9,522 bases of DNA, taken from a bacterium. Lineage in GTDB: Bacteria; Blakebacterota; Blakebacteria; Blakebacterales; Blakebacteraceae. The notes under the pieces were generated by a model that was given only the letters and a program-made list of their open reading frames with translations, had not been told where the DNA came from and ran no database searches. The stretch spans positions 1-9,522 of the forward strand of contig JALGWK010000068.1 of assembly GCA_025774205.1 (NCBI GenBank). The letters run 5' to 3'. Below are positions 6-9,522 of this stretch, piece after piece (the stretch's first letter is position 1; every line of letters begins with the position of its first letter). Made by a program: the position numbers and the translations under genes.

Positions 6-1196
6 TCACGTCACATGCGGGCGGACGACCCCCGCGAGTCGTTCCACTCCCTCATCGATCAGTTCCGGAGTGAGGTTGGCGTATGAGAGACGCATGGTGT
101 TGTGATGTCCACCGGTAGTGGAGAAGACCGCGCCCGGGATGTAGGCGACCTTCTGCTCGACCGCCTCGGTGAAGATCTCGGTAGTGTCGACGCTCTCCGG
201 CAGTTCGACCCAGGTGAAGATCCCTCCCTCCGGCCGGCTCCAGCGGGCTATGTCACCGAGATGGGAATCGAGCGCCCTGAGCATCGCAGTACCGCGCTCC
301 CGGTAGGCGTCCCTGCTCCTCTCCAGATGAGCCGGCAGCAGTCCCCGGTCGATGAATTCCATGACCATCCGCTGGGTCAGGGTGGAGGATTCGAGATCGA
401 ACGATTCCCTGAGCACCGTGACGGTCGGAGCGAGATCGACGGGCGCCACGATCCAGCCGAGCCGCAGGGCGGGGGCCAGCAGTTTCGAGAAGGATCCGAG
501 GTAGAAAACCCTGCCCGCCTCATCGAACGACCGGATCGGGGGATCGAGTTCCCCTTCGAAACGGAGAAGCGAATAGGGATCGTCTTCTATGAGAGGAATA
601 GCATGTTCGGCGCAGAGGGCCGCCACTCTCTGCCGGTCGTCGATCGACAGACTGATCCCCAGGGGATTGTGGAAGTTCGGGATCACCACGGCGAGTCGCG
701 GAGACGGGGAGGAGGTGATAGCGGCTTCAAAGCCGTCGATGTCGTGGCCGTCCACCGGATCGATCGTGAAGGAGACCACCTTCGCTCCGCGTCCCGAGGT
801 GACCTGCTGGACCCCGGTGAAGGTCAGGCTCTCCAGAACGACCGGTTCGCCCCGGTCGAGGAAGAGCCGGGAGACGATGGCCAGTCCCTGCTGGGCGCCG
901 TTGGTGATGAATACTTCTTCCGGGGAACACCTGACGCCCCGTTCGTTCATGTGGGCGGCGATCCATTCCTGGAGTGGTCGCCACTGGGGGCTGTACTGGA
1001 GTGTCTTCGGTCCGTCGCGGGTCAGGACCGCGTCGAGGCACTCCCGGATGGTGTCGACCGGCAGGACATCGTTGGCAGGAAGACCGCCGGCCATGGAGAT
1101 GATTTCGGGATCGACAGCCAGGCAGAGAAGGTCGCGCATCACCGAGCGCTTCAGATCGGAGACGCCCTCGCTCAAACGATGTGAGTCAGTATACAT
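6..1196 (-). CDS. PLP-dependent aminotransferase, fold type I (LysN / 2-aminoadipate transaminase-like)
   Basis: This is a complete 396-residue protein ending at TGA (6-8 on the plus strand). It looks like a class I/II aminotransferase of the kind that resembles the catalytic half of MocR regulators. Visible features are the N-terminal DPEIISMAGGLP segment (29-40), the ITNGAQQG cofactor-phosphate region (97-104), PNFHNPLG (173-180), IEDDPY with the PLP-nitrogen aspartate D206, the Schiff-base lysine K238 in SFSKLLAP, and R369 in NTMRLSYAN for the substrate carboxylate. The usual NPTG is NPLG here. There is no N-terminal winged-helix domain, so it is an enzyme rather than a MocR regulator. The frame is open up to 1280, but ATG 1196 fits the family's usual start best; its ribosome site is weak. 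Substrate is unknown. It is divergent from the molybdenum hydroxylase operon and may share control with it (inference). Confidence 0.9.
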   Translation of the reverse strand: MYTDSHRLSEGVSDLKRSVMRDLLCLAVDPEIISMAGGLPANDVLPVDTIRECLDAVLTRDGPKTLQYSPQWRPLQEWIAAHMNERGVRCSPEEVFITNGAQQGLAIVSRLFLDRGEPVVLESLTFTGVQQVTSGRGAKVVSFTIDPVDGHDIDGFEAAITSSPSPRLAVVIPNFHNPLGISLSIDDRQRVAALCAEHAIPLIEDDPYSLLRFEGELDPPIRSFDEAGRVFYLGSFSKLLAPALRLGWIVAPVDLAPTVTVLRESFDLESSTLTQRMVMEFIDRGLLPAHLERSRDAYRERGTAMLRALDSHLGDIARWSRPEGGIFTWVELPESVDTTEIFTEAVEQKVAYIPGAVFSTTGGHHNTMRLSYANLTPELIDEGVERLAGVVRPHVT

Positions 1197-1211
1197 GGGG
1201 CCATCATATCG

Positions 1212-1234
1212 ACCCTGTTCGAAGCGAACAAGGT
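1212..1234. promoter_or_regulatory. Inverted repeat, candidate operator next to the aminotransferase start
   Basis: The arms TGTTCG and CGAACA (1216-1221 and 1225-1230) are perfectly complementary around a 3-base centre. They extend to 10-base arms (1212-1221 and 1225-1234) with one mismatch. The site lies 16 bases upstream of the minus-strand ATG, where a bound repressor could block initiation. The binding protein is unknown, and no regulator gene is present in the window. Confidence 0.4.
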
Positions 1235-1292
1235 GCAGAAAGGAAGGTTCTCCGGTATACTCCCCGCGAATTCGAAGCACCGGAACAGCTTG

Positions 1293-1344: not shown

Positions 1345-1752
1345 ATGCCTGTCTACACTCTCACGGTGAACGGAACGCGTCACACGGTCGACGTGGACGC
1401 CGACACGCCTCTGCTCTGGGTACTGAGGGACGATCTCGGTCTGACCGGGACCAAGTACTCCTGCGGCGTCGGTATCTGCGGTTCGTGCGCGGTGATCGTG
1501 AACGGTTCGCTCGAACGGTCGTGCGTCGTGCCGGTGAGTGCCGTCGATGGCGCCGAGGTCATGACCATCGAGGGACTCTCCTCCGACCGGAGTCATCCAC
1601 TCCAGCGGGCCTGGATACTGCTCGAGAGCAATCCCGATCCGAGCGATGAGGATATCGACGTCGCCATGAATGACTTCCTCTGCCGCTGCGGGACCTACCA
1701 GCGGATACGGGAAGCGATCCACCGCGCCGCAAAGGAGATGAACGATGTCTAG
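1345..1752 (+). CDS. [2Fe-2S] small subunit of a molybdenum hydroxylase (IorA-like), lacking the CGYC motif
   Basis: This is a 135-residue electron-transfer subunit of the xanthine oxidase family. The N-terminal plant-ferredoxin-type domain is complete: C40, C45 and C48 in CGVGICGSC, with C60 following. The C-terminal helical domain normally binds a second [2Fe-2S] cluster with one CxxC pair and one CxC pair. Here the CRC pair is present (C113, C115), but the QCGYC segment is missing. Compared with the second small subunit in this window, the distance from HPLQ to the next NP is shorter by exactly 20 residues, with the join at about residue 91 (near base 1617). The protein as written should therefore lack ligands for one cluster. 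Family members are normally about 150-160 residues. The stop overlaps the start of the large-subunit gene by 8 bases. Family assignment is secure; whether the deletion is real is not. Confidence 0.9.
1612..1623 (+). other. Deletion junction 1 (in frame, about 60 bases missing)
   Basis: The protein reads HPLQRAWI directly into LLESNPDPS. In the paralogue at 5619-6083 the equivalent points are separated by 20 further residues that include QCGYC. The loss keeps the reading frame. Confidence 0.75.
1732..1737 (+). promoter_or_regulatory. Ribosome binding site that fixes the large-subunit start at 1745
   Basis: AAGGAG lies 7 bases before ATG 1745, inside the end of the small-subunit gene. It shows that the native start of the large subunit is 1745 rather than the in-frame GTG at 1846, which has no good site in front of it. 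Confidence 0.7.
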
Positions 1753-3819
1753 GGTCGTCAGAGTAGACCGCCGCGACTTCATGAAGATCTCCCGGATGAT
1801 GCTGAAGCCGCCGGGGCAGCCGTCGAGCTGAAACCGAACGTCTTCGTGGCCATCGATACCGACGGCAAGGTCACTATCTGGATGCCGAGACCCGAGATGG
1901 GGCAGGGTTCCCGTACCGGACTGACGATGATCCTGGCTGACGAACTGGAAGCCGATTGGGATCGCATCGAACTGATCCAGGCCCTGGCGGGCCCGCGCGC
2001 GGTATGGGGGAGCATGACGGCCGGGGGCTCCACCAGCATCCGGCAGTTCTGGGGACCGATGGGGGACGCCGGCGCTACCGCGCGCCAGATGCTCGTGGCC
2101 GCGGCCGCGGCCCGCTGGGGAGTGCCGGTGGAGACCTGTCGCGCCGAAGGACACGCGGTCCACCGGGGAACGACCGGAGAGAAGCTGGGATACGGTGAAC
2201 TGGTCGAGGATGCTGCGCGACTGCCGGTTCCGGAGGAAGTGGTCCGCAAGGACCCGTCCGAGTTCCGCTACATCGACCGGCCGATCCCCCGGCTCGACAT
2301 CCCCTCGAAGGTGGATGGAAGCGCCGTGTTCGGATTCGACTTCCGGGTGCCCGACATGAAGTTCGCCACCATCAGGCGCTGCCCGGTGTTCGGCGGTCAG
2401 CTGAGGGGCTTCGACGACACCGAGACCCTGCGGGTGAACGGCGTGGAACAGGTGGTGGAATTCTCCGAGGGGGTCGCGGTCGTCGCCGGCTCCTCCTGGG
2501 CGGCGATGAAGGGTATGGACGCCCTCGTCATCGACTGGGATGAAGGCCCGAACGCCGGGCTCTCCTCTGAACAGATCCATGACCAGCTCGCGCAGGCCGC
2601 CACCGAGGAACCGATGGAGGCGGAGAGGACCGGGGATGATCCCCGGGCGATGCTCGACGGCGCGGCAAAAAGAATAGAGGCCGTCTACGAATGCGCCTAC
2701 GTCTCCCACTCGCCGATGGAACCGATGGTCGCTACTGCGCATGTCCATAAGGATTCCGTGGATGTATGGGTCCCGACGCAGGCGGCCCAGACCTGCCAGA
2801 ACACCGCCGCGCGCGTGCTCGACATGCCCCGTGAACAGGTCAGGATCCATACCCTGTTCAGCGGGGGTGCTTTCGGGCGCCGCCTGCAGGCCGATTACGT
2901 CTCCGACGCGGTGCAGATCTCGCGGTCGATCGGCGGTCCCGTCCAGGTTTTCTGGACCCGGGTCGAGGACACCCAGCACGGGTTCTACCGGCCGATCAGC
3001 CGCCACCACCTGGAAGCGGGTTTCGACGCGGCGGGGAACTTCACCGTCTGGCGGCACAAAGTCGTGGCCCATTCCATGTCGTCGAGGACGGACCGGGTCG
3101 ACAACAGCGCCCTGGCGGGAGCCAGGAGCCTCAGCTACGACTGGCCGAGTTCGCTGATCGAATGGAAGATGTCGAACACGCCGATCCCGGTCGGCGCCTG
3201 GCGGTCGGTGTACGCCGCCCAGGGCTGGTTCGCCACCGAAGGGTTCATAGATGAGGTCGCCGCCGAACTGGGACGTGATCCCTTCGAGTTCCGGATGGAA
3301 CTGCTGAAGGATGATCCGAGGATGCAGGAGGTCCTCAGGGTCGCGGCAGAGGCTATCGGCTGGAGTCGCGAGACACCGGAGGGCACCGGGATCGGTATCG
3401 CCTGCGGGTTCTGCTTCGGGGGGCGGGTAGCCCATGCCGCCGAAGTTTCGGTGGACTCCCGTCACCGGGTGAAGGTGCACCGGATCGAGAGCGCCATCGA
3501 CTCCGGCTGGGTGGTGAATCCCGATTCGGTCGCGGCACAGGTGGAGGGAGGAGTCGTCCTCGCCCTGCAGACCGTACTCCACGGTGAGATCACCCTCCGG
3601 AACGGCCGGGTGGAACAGGAGACCTTCGCCGAGTTCCCGCTCGTCACCATGGAAGAGGCGCCGCTCGTGAACACCCACATCGTGAAGGGCGGCTCCCCCC
3701 TCGGGGGAGTAGGGGAACCACCGATCCCGCCGCTGGCGCCGGCGGTGGTGAACGCCGTCTACGCCGCCACGGGCAAGAGGCTGCGTTCGATACCGATCAG
3801 GACCGACGACCTGCGATGA
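1745..3819 (+). CDS. Molybdopterin-binding large subunit (IorB-type), reading frame broken near the 5' end
   Basis: This is the catalytic subunit of a xanthine-oxidase-family hydroxylase that binds the molybdenum cofactor. Starting at ATG 1745 the frame gives [16 protein letters not shown], a Tat-type n-region, then runs into a stop at 1829-1831. The rest of the protein is one frame over, from about 1801 ([20 protein letters not shown]) to TGA 3817-3819. The hydrophobic Tat stretch is in neither frame, so bases are missing here; simple slippage cannot explain it. The body looks full length: EMGQG at about 1894-1908, GGAFGRR at 2863-2883 (the GRR form typical of isoquinoline 1-oxidoreductase-like enzymes rather than GGGFGGK), GAWRSV near 3196, and the catalytic base glutamate of GVGEP at 3715-3717. 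A GTG at 1846 could start a leaderless cytoplasmic form, but this is unlikely to be native. It overlaps the next gene by ATGA. Substrate unknown. Confidence 0.85.
1789..1804 (+). other. Deletion junction 2 (frameshift; Tat hydrophobic region missing)
   Basis: Upstream of here the coding frame is that of ATG 1745; downstream it is that of the 3819 stop. Restoring one frame needs a number of bases equal to 1 modulo 3 (for example 58 or 61). The family normally has some 15-20 hydrophobic and linker residues at this place. Confidence 0.7.
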
Positions 3820-4961
3820 ACGAACTCCGTGCTATCATCGCCAACTGGAAGGAACTGGCCGGGGAGGGCCGGCGATCGGTCCTGCTCACCCTGGTCGACG
3901 TGGTGGGATCCTCCTGCCGGCGTCCCGGGGCGCGCATGCTCGCCGATGAGGAGGGGTGGCTGGCCGGGCATATCGGCGGCGGCTGTCTCGAGGGGGACCT
4001 TCTCGAGCACGCCCGGGCAGTTCTCGAAGACGGTGATTCGAAAATCGTTACCTACGACCTCTCAGAGTCGGGTGAACTGGCCTGGGGGCTCGGGATCGGA
4101 TGTCCCGGGACGATCATGGTCCTCGTCGAGCCGTTCGATGAAACGCTGGTCGGGAGGTTCGAGTCGATCGCCTTCCAGGAAGAGGCTCTCGTCCCGGTGA
4201 CCGTTTTCCAGGCCGGTGATGAGGCTCCCTGGGGGGTGGGGGACCGCCGGGTCATCCGCTCGGACGGATCGATCGATCTCCCCCTGCCCGAGGGAATGTC
4301 CCCGGAAGCCATCGGGGAAACGGCCAGGCAGGTTCTCGAGGCCCGGAAGACCGTGGTCCGCGAGTTCGGAGAAGCTCCTTCCGGTTTCAGGGCGCTGGTC
4401 GAGTACCTGGCTCCGCCGCTGAAGCTGATGGTCTTCGGCGCGGGACAGGACACCACTGCCCTGCTGGTGCTCGCCGCTGACCTGGGCTGGGAGACAACCG
4501 TGGTCGATCCCGGCTCGGTCGTCGAGGCGCGCCGGCGGGTACCTGAAACGGTCCGCGTCATCAACGCCGAACCGGCCGATGTCATGGATGATCTGACTAT
4601 CGATGACCGGACAGCGGTGGTCATGCTTAGCCACCAGTTCCAGCGTGATCGGGCTCTCCTCGAATATCTCTCCCGGACCCGGGTGCCCTACGTGGGACTG
4701 ATCGGGGCGTACGCGCGCCGGGACGCCCTTCTTTCTGCCCTGGCTCCCGATCGCCTGGATGATCTCGAGGGACGACTCCACGCTCCGATCGGTCTCGACA
4801 TCGGGGGGGAAGGACCCGAAGAGATCGCCCTCTCGATCGCGGCGGAGATAACGGCAGTATTCAATGGCAGGTCGGGAGGGTTCCTGCGTGATGGCAGGGA
4901 CTCGATCCATGGACGACTCGACAATGAGGATAATCTCGAAGATGAGGCCCCCTCCTCATGA
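3816..4961 (+). CDS. XdhC/CoxI-family molybdenum cofactor maturation protein
   Basis: This 381-residue protein belongs to the XdhC/CoxI family, cytoplasmic factors that bind molybdenum cofactor, help its sulfuration and insert it into xanthine-dehydrogenase-type apoenzymes. The N-terminal XdhC_CoxI domain shows GSSCRRPGARM (31-41), the conserved GGGCLE (54-59, C57) and WGLGIGCPG (90-98). The C-terminal Rossmann domain begins at KLMVFGAGQDTTAL (203-216) and includes MLSHQFQRD (270-278), YVGLIGAYARRDAL (292-305) and HAPIGLDIG (322-330). It ends in the usual GGFLRDG...IHGR, followed by an acidic tail. ATG 3816 overlaps the preceding stop (ATGA) and the end overlaps the next start the same way, so translation is probably coupled. 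Its place between two hydroxylases suggests that it serves both. No defect is visible. Confidence 0.92.
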   Translation: MNELRAIIANWKELAGEGRRSVLLTLVDVVGSSCRRPGARMLADEEGWLAGHIGGGCLEGDLLEHARAVLEDGDSKIVTYDLSESGELAWGLGIGCPGTIMVLVEPFDETLVGRFESIAFQEEALVPVTVFQAGDEAPWGVGDRRVIRSDGSIDLPLPEGMSPEAIGETARQVLEARKTVVREFGEAPSGFRALVEYLAPPLKLMVFGAGQDTTALLVLAADLGWETTVVDPGSVVEARRRVPETVRVINAEPADVMDDLTIDDRTAVVMLSHQFQRDRALLEYLSRTRVPYVGLIGAYARRDALLSALAPDRLDDLEGRLHAPIGLDIGGEGPEEIALSIAAEITAVFNGRSGGFLRDGRDSIHGRLDNEDNLEDEAPSS

Positions 4962-5581
4962 GCGATGAGGCCATCCCGGGTGTTGACACCATCCCGGTGA
5001 TCGTGCTCGCGGCGGGCGGCTCCACCCGAACAAAGACTCCCAAGCAGCTTTTCAGATACGAAGGCAAAACCCTGCTGCGCCGGGCGGTGGAGACCGCCCT
5101 CGATTCCGACTGCGCGCCGGTCCACGTAGTGCTTGGCGCCGGGGCGGAACGCTTCTCGCACGAACTCATCGGCCTGCCGGTCCACGTGACCGTGAACCAT
5201 GAATGGGAAGAGGGGATCAGCAGTTCGATCCGGGCCGGTCTCCATGTCGCGACCGGTCAGGAGAGCAGCGTCCGGGCAGTGGTGTTCATGACTGTCGACC
5301 AGCCCTCCGTGACGGCGGAGATCCTGAACACCTTACGGCAGAAATACCGGGAGAGCAGGCCGCCGGTCGTGGCCTGCGCCTATGACGGGACCGTCGGCAC
5401 CCCGGCCCTCCTGGATGCGTCTCTCTTCGAATCGGTCCGGGCGCTGGAGGGCGACGCCGGAGCCAAGCTGATCATCCTCCAGCAGGAGGACGCGGCGTTG
5501 ACGATCGAGGCTCCCGACGCGGCGCTCGATATCGACACCGAAGAGGACCTGCTCCGATTGACAGATCAGACGAAGCAGTAA
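4958..5581 (+). CDS. MocA-like molybdopterin nucleotidyltransferase (NTP transferase fold)
   Basis: This 207-residue protein is of the MobA/MocA type, which attaches a nucleotide (CMP in MocA) to molybdopterin. The resulting dinucleotide cofactor is used by xanthine-oxidase-family enzymes. Visible features are the nucleotide-binding N-terminus LAAGGSTRTKTPKQL (17-31), EGISSSIRAG (85-94), the metal-binding DQP (114-116), GTPAL (147-151), GDAGAK (165-170) and DIDTEED (191-197). The usual RMG of the signature loop (LAAG-x-S-x-RMG-xx-K) is RTK here, an unusual change next to the catalytic loop. CTP use is inferred from the hydroxylase context, not proven. The start overlaps the XdhC stop by ATGA; TAA ends it at 5579-5581. 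Confidence 0.88.
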   Translation: MSDEAIPGVDTIPVIVLAAGGSTRTKTPKQLFRYEGKTLLRRAVETALDSDCAPVHVVLGAGAERFSHELIGLPVHVTVNHEWEEGISSSIRAGLHVATGQESSVRAVVFMTVDQPSVTAEILNTLRQKYRESRPPVVACAYDGTVGTPALLDASLFESVRALEGDAGAKLIILQQEDAALTIEAPDAALDIDTEEDLLRLTDQTKQ

Positions 5582-5617
5582 CCGAATTGGATGAAACAGT
5601 AACCGAGGTGGATGTGT
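5576..5617 (+). repeat. Imperfect 21-base tandem repeat spanning the MocA-like stop and the next ribosome site
   Basis: Two adjacent units (5576-5596 and 5597-5617) share CAGTAACCGA followed two bases later by TGGATG; 16 of 21 positions match. Unit 1 contains the stop codon TAA. Unit 2 carries the GAGGTGG ribosome site of the next gene. The 37-base gap between the two genes is mostly this duplication. Confidence 0.7.
5605..5611 (+). promoter_or_regulatory. Ribosome binding site favouring ATG 5619
   Basis: GAGGTGG (5605-5611) lies 7 bases before ATG 5619. An in-frame GTG directly before it (5616) is a less likely start. Confidence 0.6.
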
Positions 5618-5618
5618 G

Positions 5619-6083
5619 ATGAGAGAGACCATCGAATTCACCCTGAACGGAGAGCCGGTCAGCCTCGATACAGATGGCGACCGGATCCTCCTGTGGGTGC
5701 TTCGGACCGACCTGGAACTCACGGGAACCAAGTACGGTTGCGGCATCGGGCTGTGCGGATCGTGCACCGTCCTGGTGGATGGTGAGGCCGAACGATCGTG
5801 CGCGCTGCCCCTGCGGGCGGTGCGAGGCAGGGAGGTCGTCACGATCGAGGGCCTGGCCGGGGGCGAGGTGCTCCATCCCCTGCAGGAGGAGTTCGCCGAG
5901 CGGGGCGCGCTCCAGTGCGGGTACTGCACACCCGGCATGCTCATGAACGCCGCCGGACTGCTGAACGGGAATCCCCATCCCTCCCGGGAGGAGATCGTGG
6001 ACGGCATGGAGGGGAACCTCTGCCGCTGCGGGGCCCATAAACGGATCATCGAGGCCATCGACGCCGCCTCGAAGCGGATGTGA
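5619..6083 (+). CDS. [2Fe-2S] small subunit of a second molybdenum hydroxylase
   Basis: This 154-residue, apparently intact electron-transfer subunit has all eight cluster ligands. The ferredoxin-like domain has C41, C46 and C49 in CGIGLCGSC plus C61. The helical domain has C100 and C103 in QCGYC plus C135 and C137 in LCRCG. It has no signal peptide of its own; such subunits are thought to be exported together with a Tat-bearing large subunit. It serves here as the internal reference showing what the first small subunit lacks. TGA 6081-6083 is followed by the large-subunit start 8 bases on, so the two are expected to be made together. Confidence 0.95.
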   Translation: MRETIEFTLNGEPVSLDTDGDRILLWVLRTDLELTGTKYGCGIGLCGSCTVLVDGEAERSCALPLRAVRGREVVTIEGLAGGEVLHPLQEEFAERGALQCGYCTPGMLMNAAGLLNGNPHPSREEIVDGMEGNLCRCGAHKRIIEAIDAASKRM

Positions 6084-6087
6084 GGTG
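6081..6087 (+). promoter_or_regulatory. Ribosome binding site favouring ATG 6092
   Basis: TGAGGTG overlaps the stop of the small subunit and lies 4 bases before ATG 6092. The in-frame GTG at 6080-6082 would overlap this site and is not favoured. Confidence 0.5.
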
Positions 6088-6091
6088 GATC

Positions 6092-8260
6092 ATGACTGAT
6101 AACACAACCAGGGATTTCGATCCCGTCGATTTTGAACTGAGCAGCTGGTCGGAGGCCTTTCCCTTCGATCGCCGTGATTTCCTGAAGACCCTGGGAGCGG
6201 GGATATTCGTCTTCGTCACCCTTGGTGACCTGGCCGTCGCCGGCGAGCAGGGCGGCCGGAGCTACCCCGACGATATCAACGCCTACCTGCGGATCGGTGA
6301 GGATGGCCGGGTCACCATCTTCAGCGGCAAGATCGAGATGGGGCAGGGGGTGATGACCTCCCTGGCGCAGATGGCTGCCGAAGATCTGCAGGTGCCGTTC
6401 GGCGCGATCGACATGGTGATGGGTGACACCGATCAGTGCCCCTGGGATATGGGTACCTTCGGTTCGATGAGCACCCGGTTCTTCGGGCCCGCGCTGCGCG
6501 CCGCCGCCGCCGAAGCCAGGGAAGTCCTTCTCGGCCTGGCCGCCGAACACCTCGAGGCGCCCAGGAACCGGATGCGGGCCCATGAAGGCGTGGCCTACAT
6601 GGATTCCGATCGGTCGAAGCGGGTGACGTACGCTGAACTCACCCGGGGACGGCAGATCACCCGCGTGCTCGGAGAAGAGGCGGTCCAGAAGTCGGTCGCC
6701 GAGTTCACCGTCATGGGGAAGTCGTTCACGCGGCTTGACGCGACGGAAAAGGTGACCGGGAGCGCCGAGTTTGCCGGTGACATCCGACTGCCCGGGATGC
6801 TCTACGCGAAGATGGTGCGTCCGCCCTCCCATGACGCCACCCTCCGCACGGTCGACACCTCGGCCGCGGCCGCCATGCCCGGGATCACCGTTGTGGAAGA
6901 TGACGGGCTTATCGCCGTACTGCATGAGGATCCCGAGATGGCCGAACAGGCGCTGGGGAGGGTGCGGGCCGACTGGGATCGCCCGGAATCGGATCTGGAT
7001 GAGGAGAGCATCTTCGATCATCTGGTGAATGAGTATACCGATGGTCGGGCCTCTGACGTCCGGGGGGATCTCGCCCGGGGTGAGCAGGAGTCATCGATGC
7101 TCTTCGAAGAGACCTATCTCGATGGCTACGTCGCCCACGCGCCAATGGAGCCGCACACCTCGACGGCACAGATCGAGAACGGGAAGGCGACCGTCTGGGC
7201 GTCTACCCAGACGCCTTTCCCGGATCAGAGCCAGGTAGCCCGGGCACTGGGATTCAGTGAGGAGGACGTGCGGATCATCACCCCCTACGTCGGGGGCGGG
7301 TTCGGTGGCAAGACAGGGGGGCTGCAGAATATCGAAGCGGCAAAGCTGGCGCAGGTCACCGGCCGTCCCGTGCAGGTCGCCTGGAGCCGGGCCGAAGAGT
7401 TCTTCTACGACTCCTTCAGACCCGCTTCGGTGATAAAGATCAAATCGGGTGTGGATGGGAACGGCCGGATCCATCTCTGGGATTACCACGTCTACGCCGC
7501 GGGCACGAGGGGCGCCGATCAGCATTATGACGCGCCCCACAACAGCATCACCTCCTATGGAGGCTGGATGGGGGGCGGGGCGAGTCCGCACCCGTTCGCC
7601 GTGGGTGCCTGGCGGGCTCCGGGAGCGAACACCAACATCTTCGCCAAGGAATCCCAGATCGACATCATGGCCGCCGCGTTGAAGGTCGATCCCCTCGAAT
7701 TCCGTCTGAAGAACACCTCCGATGAACGGCTGATCGGGGTGCTGAAAGTGGTCGCCGACGCTTTCGGATGGCAGGCGGGAGCCGCTCCCGGCGGCCGGGG
7801 CCAGGGACTGGCCTGCGGGCTGGACGCCGGCACCTACGTGGCTCACATGGCGGAGGTGGAGGTCGATGAGCGGACCGGAGCGATCAAGGTCAACCGGATC
7901 GTCTGCGCGCAGGACATGGGCGTGGTCGTGAATCCGGACGGCGCGAAGATGCAGATGGAAGGGTGCATCACCATGGGACTGGGCTACACCCTGACGGAGG
8001 ACATCCGCTTCAGGGGTGGAGAGGTACTCGACCTCAACTTCGACACCTACGAGATCCCCCGGTTCTCCGGGCTTCCGGAGATCGAGACGATCCTGGTGAA
8101 GAACGACCTGGTGACGCCGCAGGGCGGGGGTGAGCCGGCGATCATCAGCATCGGCGCCCTGGTGGCCAACGCGATCTTCGACGCGGTCGGCGTGCGCCTG
8201 TTCCAGTTGCCCATGACCCCGGCGCGTGTCCGTGACGCGCTCGCCCGCAGAGGAGAGTGA
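6092..8260 (+). CDS. Molybdopterin-binding large subunit with Tat signal (second molybdenum hydroxylase)
   Basis: This is a complete 722-residue catalytic subunit of a xanthine-oxidase-family hydroxylase. It starts with a Tat signal: FDRRDFLK (25-32, RR at 27-28), then a hydrophobic stretch to about residue 46 and a likely cleavage region near AVAGEQ. Mature-enzyme motifs are EMGQG (82-86), VTGSAEFAGD with the first substrate-channel domain near the middle, AHAPMEPHT, VGGGFGGKTGG (from G401, the common xanthine-dehydrogenase form), FAVGAWRAPGANTN, QMEGCITMGLGY and the catalytic glutamate E681 in GGGEPAI. It pairs with the small subunit directly upstream. No FAD subunit is encoded, so electrons probably go to a periplasmic or membrane carrier not present in the window. 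It belongs to a different subgroup from the first large subunit. Substrate unknown. Confidence 0.94.
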   Translation: MTDNTTRDFDPVDFELSSWSEAFPFDRRDFLKTLGAGIFVFVTLGDLAVAGEQGGRSYPDDINAYLRIGEDGRVTIFSGKIEMGQGVMTSLAQMAAEDLQVPFGAIDMVMGDTDQCPWDMGTFGSMSTRFFGPALRAAAAEAREVLLGLAAEHLEAPRNRMRAHEGVAYMDSDRSKRVTYAELTRGRQITRVLGEEAVQKSVAEFTVMGKSFTRLDATEKVTGSAEFAGDIRLPGMLYAKMVRPPSHDATLRTVDTSAAAAMPGITVVEDDGLIAVLHEDPEMAEQALGRVRADWDRPESDLDEESIFDHLVNEYTDGRASDVRGDLARGEQESSMLFEETYLDGYVAHAPMEPHTSTAQIENGKATVWASTQTPFPDQSQVARALGFSEEDVRIITPYVGGGFGGKTGGLQNIEAAKLAQVTGRPVQVAWSRAEEFFYDSFRPASVIKIKSGVDGNGRIHLWDYHVYAAGTRGADQHYDAPHNSITSYGGWMGGGASPHPFAVGAWRAPGANTNIFAKESQIDIMAAALKVDPLEFRLKNTSDERLIGVLKVVADAFGWQAGAAPGGRGQGLACGLDAGTYVAHMAEVEVDERTGAIKVNRIVCAQDMGVVVNPDGAKMQMEGCITMGLGYTLTEDIRFRGGEVLDLNFDTYEIPRFSGLPEIETILVKNDLVTPQGGGEPAIISIGALVANAIFDAVGVRLFQLPMTPARVRDALARRGE
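8251..8257 (+). promoter_or_regulatory. Ribosome binding site fixing the class V gene start at 8265
   Basis: AGGAGAG lies 7 bases before ATG 8265, overlapping the end of the large-subunit gene. It supports this ATG over an upstream in-frame GTG at 8226. Confidence 0.65.
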
Positions 8261-8264
8261 AACC

Positions 8265-9522
8265 ATGAGCGCTCCACTGGTGACGTTCGACCATGCCCCT
8301 TCCGACGCCTGGTATCCGCCGAGACGGGAGTTCCTCTCCCGCCTGCTGGGTGGTGCGGCTGCAGCGGCAGTTCTGCCGGCCGGGATGGTCGCCGGATCAG
8401 AGGGATTATCCTCATCTCCACCGACCGGTCTCGGAGAGTCCTTCAAAAACGACCCGGTCGACGAGCGTTACTGGTCGATGGTGAAGGATCACTTCCCGCT
8501 CCGGGAGGATCTGATCGTCATGAACGCCGCCAATCTCTGTCCTTCGCCGTGGACAGTGCAGGAGGCGGTGTTCGGACTGACCCGGGACGTCGATGGCGAT
8601 CCATCCCACGCGAACCGGGGGAAGTTCGGCGACCTGCGCGATGAAGCCCGCGCCCTCCTGGCAGGCTGGCTGGGTGCCGATCCGGAAGAGATCGTGATCA
8701 CCAGGAACACCTCCGAGGGGAACAACGTGGTGATCAGCGGGCTCCGGCTCGGCCCCGGTGATGAAGTGGTGATCTGGGATCAGAACCACCCGACCTGCAG
8801 TCTGGCCTGGGATGTGGGCGCCCGCCGGCACGGGTATATGGTCAGGCGGGTGGCGACTCCACCCGATCCGGGATCGGAAGCGGATCTCATCCGACCGTTC
8901 CGTGAAGCGCTGTCCGCCCGGACCAGGGTGCTGGCGTTCAGTCATGTCTCCAATGTGTCGGGGGTGGCGCTGCCGGCCGGGAAGTTGTGCGAGCTGGCCC
9001 GGGAACGCGGTGTGATGACCCTTGTGGACGGGGCTCAGACCTGCGGGGCCGAGGCCCTCGATCTCCATGCCATGGGCTGCGACTTCTTCACGGGCAGCGC
9101 CCACAAGTGGCCGATGGGACCGAAGGAGACCGGGGTACTCTACGTCAGCAGGGAGCGGCAGGATGATGTCTGGCCGCTCATCGTGGGCATCGGCTGGGGT
9201 GAGAGTGACGCCGGTTCGAAGTTCGAAGCCCTCGGACAGCGGGATGATGCCCGGGTCTCGGCCGTGAAGGAAATGGTCGAGTTCCACGAGATGATCGGGA
9301 AGCGCCAGGTTGAGGAGCGGATTCGAGCCCTTGCTTCAGAAGTGAAACGTCAGCTCGCGGCCCGCTCCCCCCGGCGTGGATCTGGGCAGCGCCATGCGGG
9401 TCCTCTACGAGGAGCATTCGATCGGCTGCGCGGTGATGAGAGGTGACTTCGCGGGGATCCGGCTCTCCCCGCACATATACAACACGATGGAGGAAGTAGA
9501 GCGGGTGGTGGAGGCGATCGCC
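8265..9522 (+). CDS. Tat-type, class V aminotransferase-like PLP enzyme (isopenicillin N epimerase-like), frameshifted near the 3' end and cut by the window edge
   Basis: This is a fold-type I PLP enzyme of the class V / cysteine desulfurase superfamily. The N-terminus carries PPRREFLSRLLGG (RR at 20-21) and an alanine-rich hydrophobic stretch to about residue 44, which is a Tat-type signal or anchor. Catalytic features are RNTSEGNN, the N-Q-N-H-P-T strand region, D255 in LVDGAQ and the Schiff-base lysine K281 in GSAHKWPMGPKETG. From ATG 8265 the frame reads 393 residues to a stop at 9444-9446, but the last ~25 residues are unlike the family. From about 9367 the proper C-terminus (PPGVDLGSAMRVL...RLSPHIYNT) continues in another frame and is still open at 9522. 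The reaction is unknown; transamination, racemisation or desulfuration are all possible for this superfamily. Confidence 0.85.
9361..9375 (+). other. Deletion junction 3 (frameshift in the class V gene)
   Basis: The frame of 8265 reads family-like sequence to QLAARSP. The family-like continuation PPGVDLGSAM begins immediately after it in a different frame, across a run of six C (9367-9372). Frame restoration needs a number of bases equal to 2 modulo 3. Related enzymes usually carry about 20 more residues here (a PGV...SAGVV-type strand), so a loss of roughly 59 or 62 bases fits better than a one-base error in the C run. Confidence 0.65.

Follow-up and report, generated by a model that had tools for sequence, protein, structure and literature searches.

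Our analysis concerned a 9522 bp window of bacterial DNA, which is the entire contig JALGWK010000068.1 (contig C214) of a 527-contig metagenome-assembled genome that is 86 % complete (G000), so that any DNA past position 9522 lies outside the assembled stretch. Seven genes were found on one strand, running from position 1345 to the right contig end, with an aminotransferase gene diverging from them on the left (6–1280). The seven genes encode two molybdenum hydroxylases, each consisting of a small and a large subunit, arranged around an xdhC–mocA maturation pair and followed by a class V enzyme dependent on pyridoxal 5′-phosphate (PLP). Three modules that otherwise travel separately have probably come together here, locally, in one same-strand unit, these being small1–large1, xdhC–mocA–small2–large2 and a solitary PLP enzyme. 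The seven genes were as follows; signals for the twin-arginine translocation (Tat) pathway were assessed by motif and alignment.

1345–1752, plus strand: small1, a [2Fe-2S] subunit with PF00111 and a partial PF01799 (positions 40–75 of 75)
1745–3819, plus strand (ATG at 1745): large1, a molybdopterin subunit of the permuted IorB/AldH type, with the GGAFGRR loop, the GEP glutamate and a match to 8gy3_C over 2–657
3816–4961, plus strand: xdhC, a maturation factor of the XdhC/CoxI family, with PF02625 (N-terminal domain) and PF13478 (Rossmann domain)
4958–5581, plus strand: mocA, a MocA-like nucleotidyltransferase predicted to act in the synthesis of molybdopterin cytosine dinucleotide (MCD), with PF12804 and a match to TIGR03310 below its cut-off
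5616–6083, plus strand: small2, an intact [2Fe-2S] subunit with PF00111, a full PF01799 and every cluster cysteine in place by alignment
6080–8260, plus strand: large2, an intact Tat-type molybdopterin subunit of the permuted IorB/AldH type, with the GGGFGGK loop, the GGGEPA active-site segment and a match to 8gy3_C over 21–722
8265–9522, plus strand (ATG at 8265): a PvdN-like, Tat-type class V PLP enzyme with its Schiff-base lysine in SAHKW; the open reading frame stops at 9446, and a different frame carries the C-terminus on to the end of the contig

The initial annotation, made from the sequence alone, had described this order with ATGA overlaps or short gaps throughout, and the coordinates bore it out. 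Overlaps across the seven genes measured 4–8 bp (8 bp between small1 and large1, ATGA at the large1–xdhC and xdhC–mocA junctions, GTGA between small2 and large2) and gaps 4–34 bp (34 bp between mocA and small2, 4 bp between large2 and the PLP gene). A scan of the window for promoters and terminators gave signals no better than those of shuffled sequence. The contig carried neither a flavin adenine dinucleotide (FAD) subunit nor a helix–turn–helix (HTH) regulator, in agreement with the annotation, and no cytochrome c subunit was present on the contig, the right edge of which falls at the PLP gene. The parts and their order were thus described correctly; their intactness was not, as breaks in small1, large1 and the PLP gene had gone unreported.

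Comparison with other genomes revealed how these parts travel. Relatives of large2 were collected from 56 genome loci across many phyla at approximately 50–62 % identity, and three more brought the total to 59, 33 of them flanked by 3 kb or more on each side. Of the 59 loci, 51 had small2 near large2, 5 had xdhC and 6 had mocA; the presence of xdhC and/or mocA beside small2–large2 was found mainly in Bacteroidota. The order of the third to sixth window genes, xdhC–mocA–small2–large2, was seen in three Bacteroidota loci (L045, L053 and L058), while mocA–small2–large2 stood at a contig start in L056. No large1 or PLP gene was found near large2 within the available flanks of any of the 59 loci, and no neighbours such as cytochrome c or transporter genes recurred there beyond xdhC/mocA and chance families. 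Pairs of small1 and large1 also occurred elsewhere, and 4 of the 10 loci had xdhC alongside. Those relatives of large1 that lie on annotated plasmids bore generic names only and their neighbours were inconsistent. The PLP family was found without any other window gene in 7 loci at ≥44 % identity, including an Azospirillum plasmid, and this held for every locus with readable surroundings. The full seven-gene order was seen in no relative. The parts are ordinary and it is their local order that is unusual, a caution that modules which travel separately can meet by chance on a single metagenome contig and look like a tidy operon. As a separate observation, one of the Bacteroidota loci, from a member of the Cyclobacteriaceae (L058:5819–11008), carried the large2 family as a tandem pair behind xdhC–mocA–small2.

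The phylum was sampled by four genomes, and the closest comparison came from a genome of the same genus (G001). Its xdhC and mocA, 79 and 71 % identical to those of the window, adjoin on a 4.1 kb contig (L186). DNA homology starts at window position 3812, four bases ahead of the xdhC start, and the genes upstream are unrelated and divergent. Because the homology begins at xdhC, small1–large1 is a variable add-on in the genus or was lost in G001. The xdhC–mocA pair and the PLP gene are kept in the same genus; small2–large2 left no trace in the G001 assembly, and large1 was not found in G001, G002 or G003. In G003, the PLP gene is preceded by a metallopeptidase-like gene (read by eye) and not by large2.

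These data bear directly on the proposal in the initial annotation that the seven genes form one conserved pathway, a proposal to which rare co-occurrence of the homologues in other genomes was to be fatal. Under a single dedicated envelope pathway, the PLP enzyme would convert an amine or amino acid into an aldehyde or heterocycle, which both hydroxylases would then oxidize stepwise. The tight packing on one strand favours such a pathway, as do the Tat-type signals on both the PLP enzyme and large2. However, the PLP gene occurred with neither hydroxylase in the 59 large2, 10 large1 and 7 PLP loci; it had a peptidase-like gene before it in G003, and no small1–large1 lay upstream of xdhC in G001. 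A search for conservation of the seven-gene order was the check that the annotation had suggested, and its negative outcome leaves a small opening in G001 only, where contig ends inside mocA and inside the PLP gene leave room for small2–large2. By the annotation's own standard the single pathway fails for small1–large1, and for the PLP enzyme it finds no support. We consider a single pathway improbable, and a role in the turnover of N-heterocycles or amines was supported in neither direction.

The two hydroxylases are divergent, as had been claimed. Large1 and large2 share 35 % identity, and in a 73-row tree the large1-like and large2-like rows formed the two sides of a branch with 100 % support. 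The loops given for them, GGAFGRR in large1 and GGGFGGK in large2, were confirmed and are steady among relatives, a GGGFGRR-type loop being present in 20 of 25 large1-like rows and GGGFGGK in 53 of 56 large2-like rows. The catalytic glutamate lies in a C-terminal GEP motif (GGVGEPPIP in large1 and GGGEPAII in large2), with the family pattern seen in 49 of the 56 large2-like rows. By Pfam positions, both large subunits begin with part of MoCoBD_2, followed by MoCoBD_1 and then the rest of MoCoBD_2, which is the permuted domain order. A membrane-bound aldehyde dehydrogenase provided the nearest solved structure for both: each matched its large subunit, 8gy3_C, in one piece, colinearly and over the full length (E values of 7e-66 and 3e-58 for large1 and large2, respectively; 201–226 bits). 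Most classical hydroxylases matched in parts, with PaoC, 4-hydroxybenzoyl-CoA reductase and carbon monoxide dehydrogenase giving split matches to the large subunits. Judged by their sequences, the two large subunits are old, separate lineages of the same permuted subtype. A recent duplication, which the annotation had also discounted, was ruled out by the 35 % identity and the separate clades. The large2 family (L014–L069, notably L046 and L047) is a widespread and apparently uncharacterized two-gene family of Tat-type molybdenum hydroxylases, found in Acidobacteriota, Gemmatimonadota, KSB1, Bacteroidota and other phyla. It includes the cultured Draconibacterium, so that study in an isolate is possible.

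Not all of the window's genes are whole in this assembly. The large2 Tat signal (FDRRDFLKTLGAG) is in frame and the cluster cysteines of small2 are complete. Alignment with four relatives (L131, L132, L135 and L137) indicated that small1 is missing approximately 20 residues (60 bp), including the CGYC pair of its second [2Fe-2S] domain (Fer2_2). Large1 is not a single open reading frame: its Tat start at 1745, with an RRDFMK motif, lies in a different frame from the mature part and runs into a stop at once. The signal has also lost its hydrophobic stretch, and the break lies between approximately 1790 and 1845. The PLP gene is 65 bp shorter near 9358–9365 than its same-genus homologue in L120, with 81 % DNA identity on either side; its reading frame consequently ends early, and the rest of the true C-terminus is read in a different frame as far as the contig end. 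One explanation is that small1–large1 and the PLP gene are genuine pseudogenes, with the first hydroxylase decaying beside a working second. The lost cluster cysteines, the broken Tat signal and the shortened PLP gene would all be expected of decay, and the four intact genes (xdhC, mocA, small2 and large2) sit in the middle. However, the remaining 650 aa of large1 carry no stop codons and no other sign of decay, and losses of like size were found in essential genes of the same assembly. Its rpoB (L144/L147, G000:C111:7444–11109) lacks 63 bp, equal to 21 residues exactly in the rifampicin region, which are present in G001, G002 and G003. On the same contig, a fusA-like gene of 696 aa has lost approximately 31 bp and changed frame relative to G001. 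These short losses of 30–65 bp are a property of the assembly, because a living cell needs both rpoB and fusA. As the losses in small1 and the PLP gene are of the same size, we infer the same cause for the breaks in the window. The breaks in small1, large1 and the PLP gene are therefore most likely assembly losses, and the organism itself probably carries all three genes whole; genuine pseudogenes are unlikely. Cluster cysteines or signal peptides that seem to be missing can have been dropped in assembly, as was part of rpoB here. It was also observed that TatC, which is present in the window's genome, was matched as three fragments that lie in different frames (L200 and L201; G000:C124:12574–13194), a pattern that fits the same assembly losses.

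The PLP enzyme was further examined through its relatives, among which the intact G003 homologue gave PvdN as its best full-length match (E value of 9e-35). The window protein, which is shortened, scored 131 bits against the 650-bit cut-off of the PvdN NCBIfam model NF051467 and is named PvdN-like for its fold only. Its Schiff-base lysine (GSAHKWPMGPKE, SAHKW) is kept in all aligned relatives. The Tat pathway exports both PvdN and PtaA with their PLP already in place (PMC6206403). By motif and homology, the PLP enzyme is a predicted periplasmic PvdN-like enzyme. In bacteria, a NifS-like protein sulfurates the molybdenum cofactor (Moco) (PMC2997495), and membership of the class V/NifS superfamily, together with a place in the same unit as XdhC, could suggest that the PLP protein feeds sulfur to the Moco of both hydroxylases. 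Such a role is highly unlikely. The catalytic loop of SufS, RAGHHCAQ, aligns with YEKHNIGCAVMRG, which has Ile at the position of the catalytic Cys, and alignment revealed no conserved Cys nearby in relatives such as L123. Furthermore, the best full-length match is PvdN, and the protein carries a Tat-type signal, although sulfuration takes place in the cytoplasm. On the missing catalytic cysteine and the export-type signal, a NifS-like Moco sulfurase was rejected.

In the maturation pair, both domains of XdhC (PF02625 and PF13478) scored above their gathering thresholds. MocA adds cytidine monophosphate (CMP) to Mo-molybdopterin, and chaperones of the XdhC type hold the cofactor, help its sulfuration and insert it (PMC2997495). 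In the arrangement that we favour, with three modules brought together, the MocA-like protein would attach CMP to Mo-molybdopterin, and XdhC would hold the cofactor, rely on a housekeeping NifS/SufS partner for its sulfuration and, still in the cytoplasm, load both large subunits with it. The folded small–large pairs would each leave by Tat on the signal of the large subunit. In the periplasm, each hydroxylase would oxidize an aldehyde or other C–H substrate at its Mo centre and pass electrons through two [2Fe-2S] clusters to a direct acceptor such as a c-type cytochrome, direct transfer being suggested by the absence of an FAD subunit. The PLP enzyme would be exported separately, folded with PLP, and would carry out PvdN/PtaA-like chemistry of its own on an amino-acid or peptide substrate. 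Co-transcription of the seven genes is likewise presumed.

Several observations weigh against this interpretation. The combined order was seen in no relative, and sharing of XdhC and MocA by both hydroxylases is therefore a supposition. XdhC fell below the NF045664 equivalog cut-off, and MocA scored 132.1 bits against an equivalog cut-off of 186.45 for TIGR03310; this was still its best NCBIfam match, and because of the score it is named MocA-like only. The window's genome yielded a single cytochrome c match, which was weak. Among close small1–large1 homologues, there was no intact one showing the lost bases, so that genuine decay of this pair keeps a small likelihood. G001 is 82 % complete, its xdhC–mocA contig ends inside mocA and its PLP contig begins inside the PLP gene, on the matching side. 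Because the contigs break at these points, xdhC–mocA–small2–large2–PLP could be conserved in the genus, with small2–large2 in the G001 assembly gap. Were that so, the five genes might serve a conserved route in the periplasm, with the Tat-exported PvdN-like enzyme supplying an aldehyde or imine for the cofactor-sharing hydroxylase to oxidize, giving a PLP–Mo couple outside the cytoplasm; we regard this as a long shot.

The three modules have partial parallels among known systems. Enzymes of the AldFGH (PDB 8GY3) and IorAB type likewise combine a small [2Fe-2S] subunit with a large Mo subunit that has permuted domains and a Tat-type signal (here in frame in large2 but out of frame in large1), and they have no FAD subunit. 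The likeness to IorAB was drawn from the 8GY3 match and the domain order. Unlike AldFGH, the window contig has no cytochrome c subunit, and the similarity is low (201–226 bits). PaoABC–PaoD of Escherichia coli is also a periplasmic Mo hydroxylase with a dedicated chaperone of the XdhC family (PMC2997495). The MocA-like gene of the window makes an MCD cofactor likely, a further point of similarity. However, Pao is one hydroxylase with an FAD subunit, whereas the window encodes two hydroxylases without FAD that match PaoC only in part. The nicotine and ketone dehydrogenases of pAO1, the nicotine plasmid cluster of Arthrobacter, are cytoplasmic, FAD-containing enzymes of three subunits, whereas the window enzymes are predicted to be exported, have two subunits and are joined by a PLP enzyme. 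The resemblance to pAO1 lies in the encoding of both dehydrogenases with one xdhC–mocA pair, a precedent for a single pair close to several hydroxylases, although its sharing was called speculative (PMC2997495). PvdN and PtaA share the Tat-type signal and the absence of a desulfurase cysteine with the window's PLP enzyme, and PvdN also the class V PLP fold and the full-length match. In contrast to PvdN, the window protein is far under the NCBIfam cut-off and its contig has no pyoverdine genes. A search of the literature on two-hydroxylase xdhC–mocA clusters or on the 8GY3 enzyme found no closer case.

The remaining gene lies to the left of the seven.

6–1280, minus strand: a divergent class I/II aminotransferase, MocR-like in its aminotransferase part, with Pfam PF00155 only; a MocR-like NCBIfam match fell below the cut-off, and there is no HTH domain

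This gene has a homologue of 65 % identity in G003 (L195, G003:C119:832–2975), which is directly followed by an FAD subunit gene (PF00941 and PF03450). An FAD gene of the same family, followed by a fused Fe-S/Mo protein, was found on G000:C505 (L151), G001:C167 and G003:C161. As the window's aminotransferase ends at base 6, synteny would place the FAD gene just past the left contig end. A third, FAD-containing hydroxylase therefore probably lies just beyond that end, with C505 the probable left neighbour of C214. On the G001 contig (G001:C167:3665–8602; L152), the FAD-type hydroxylase was followed by genes for MoaA, a MOT1-type molybdate transporter, MoeA and a MOSC protein, which together form a molybdenum cofactor island.

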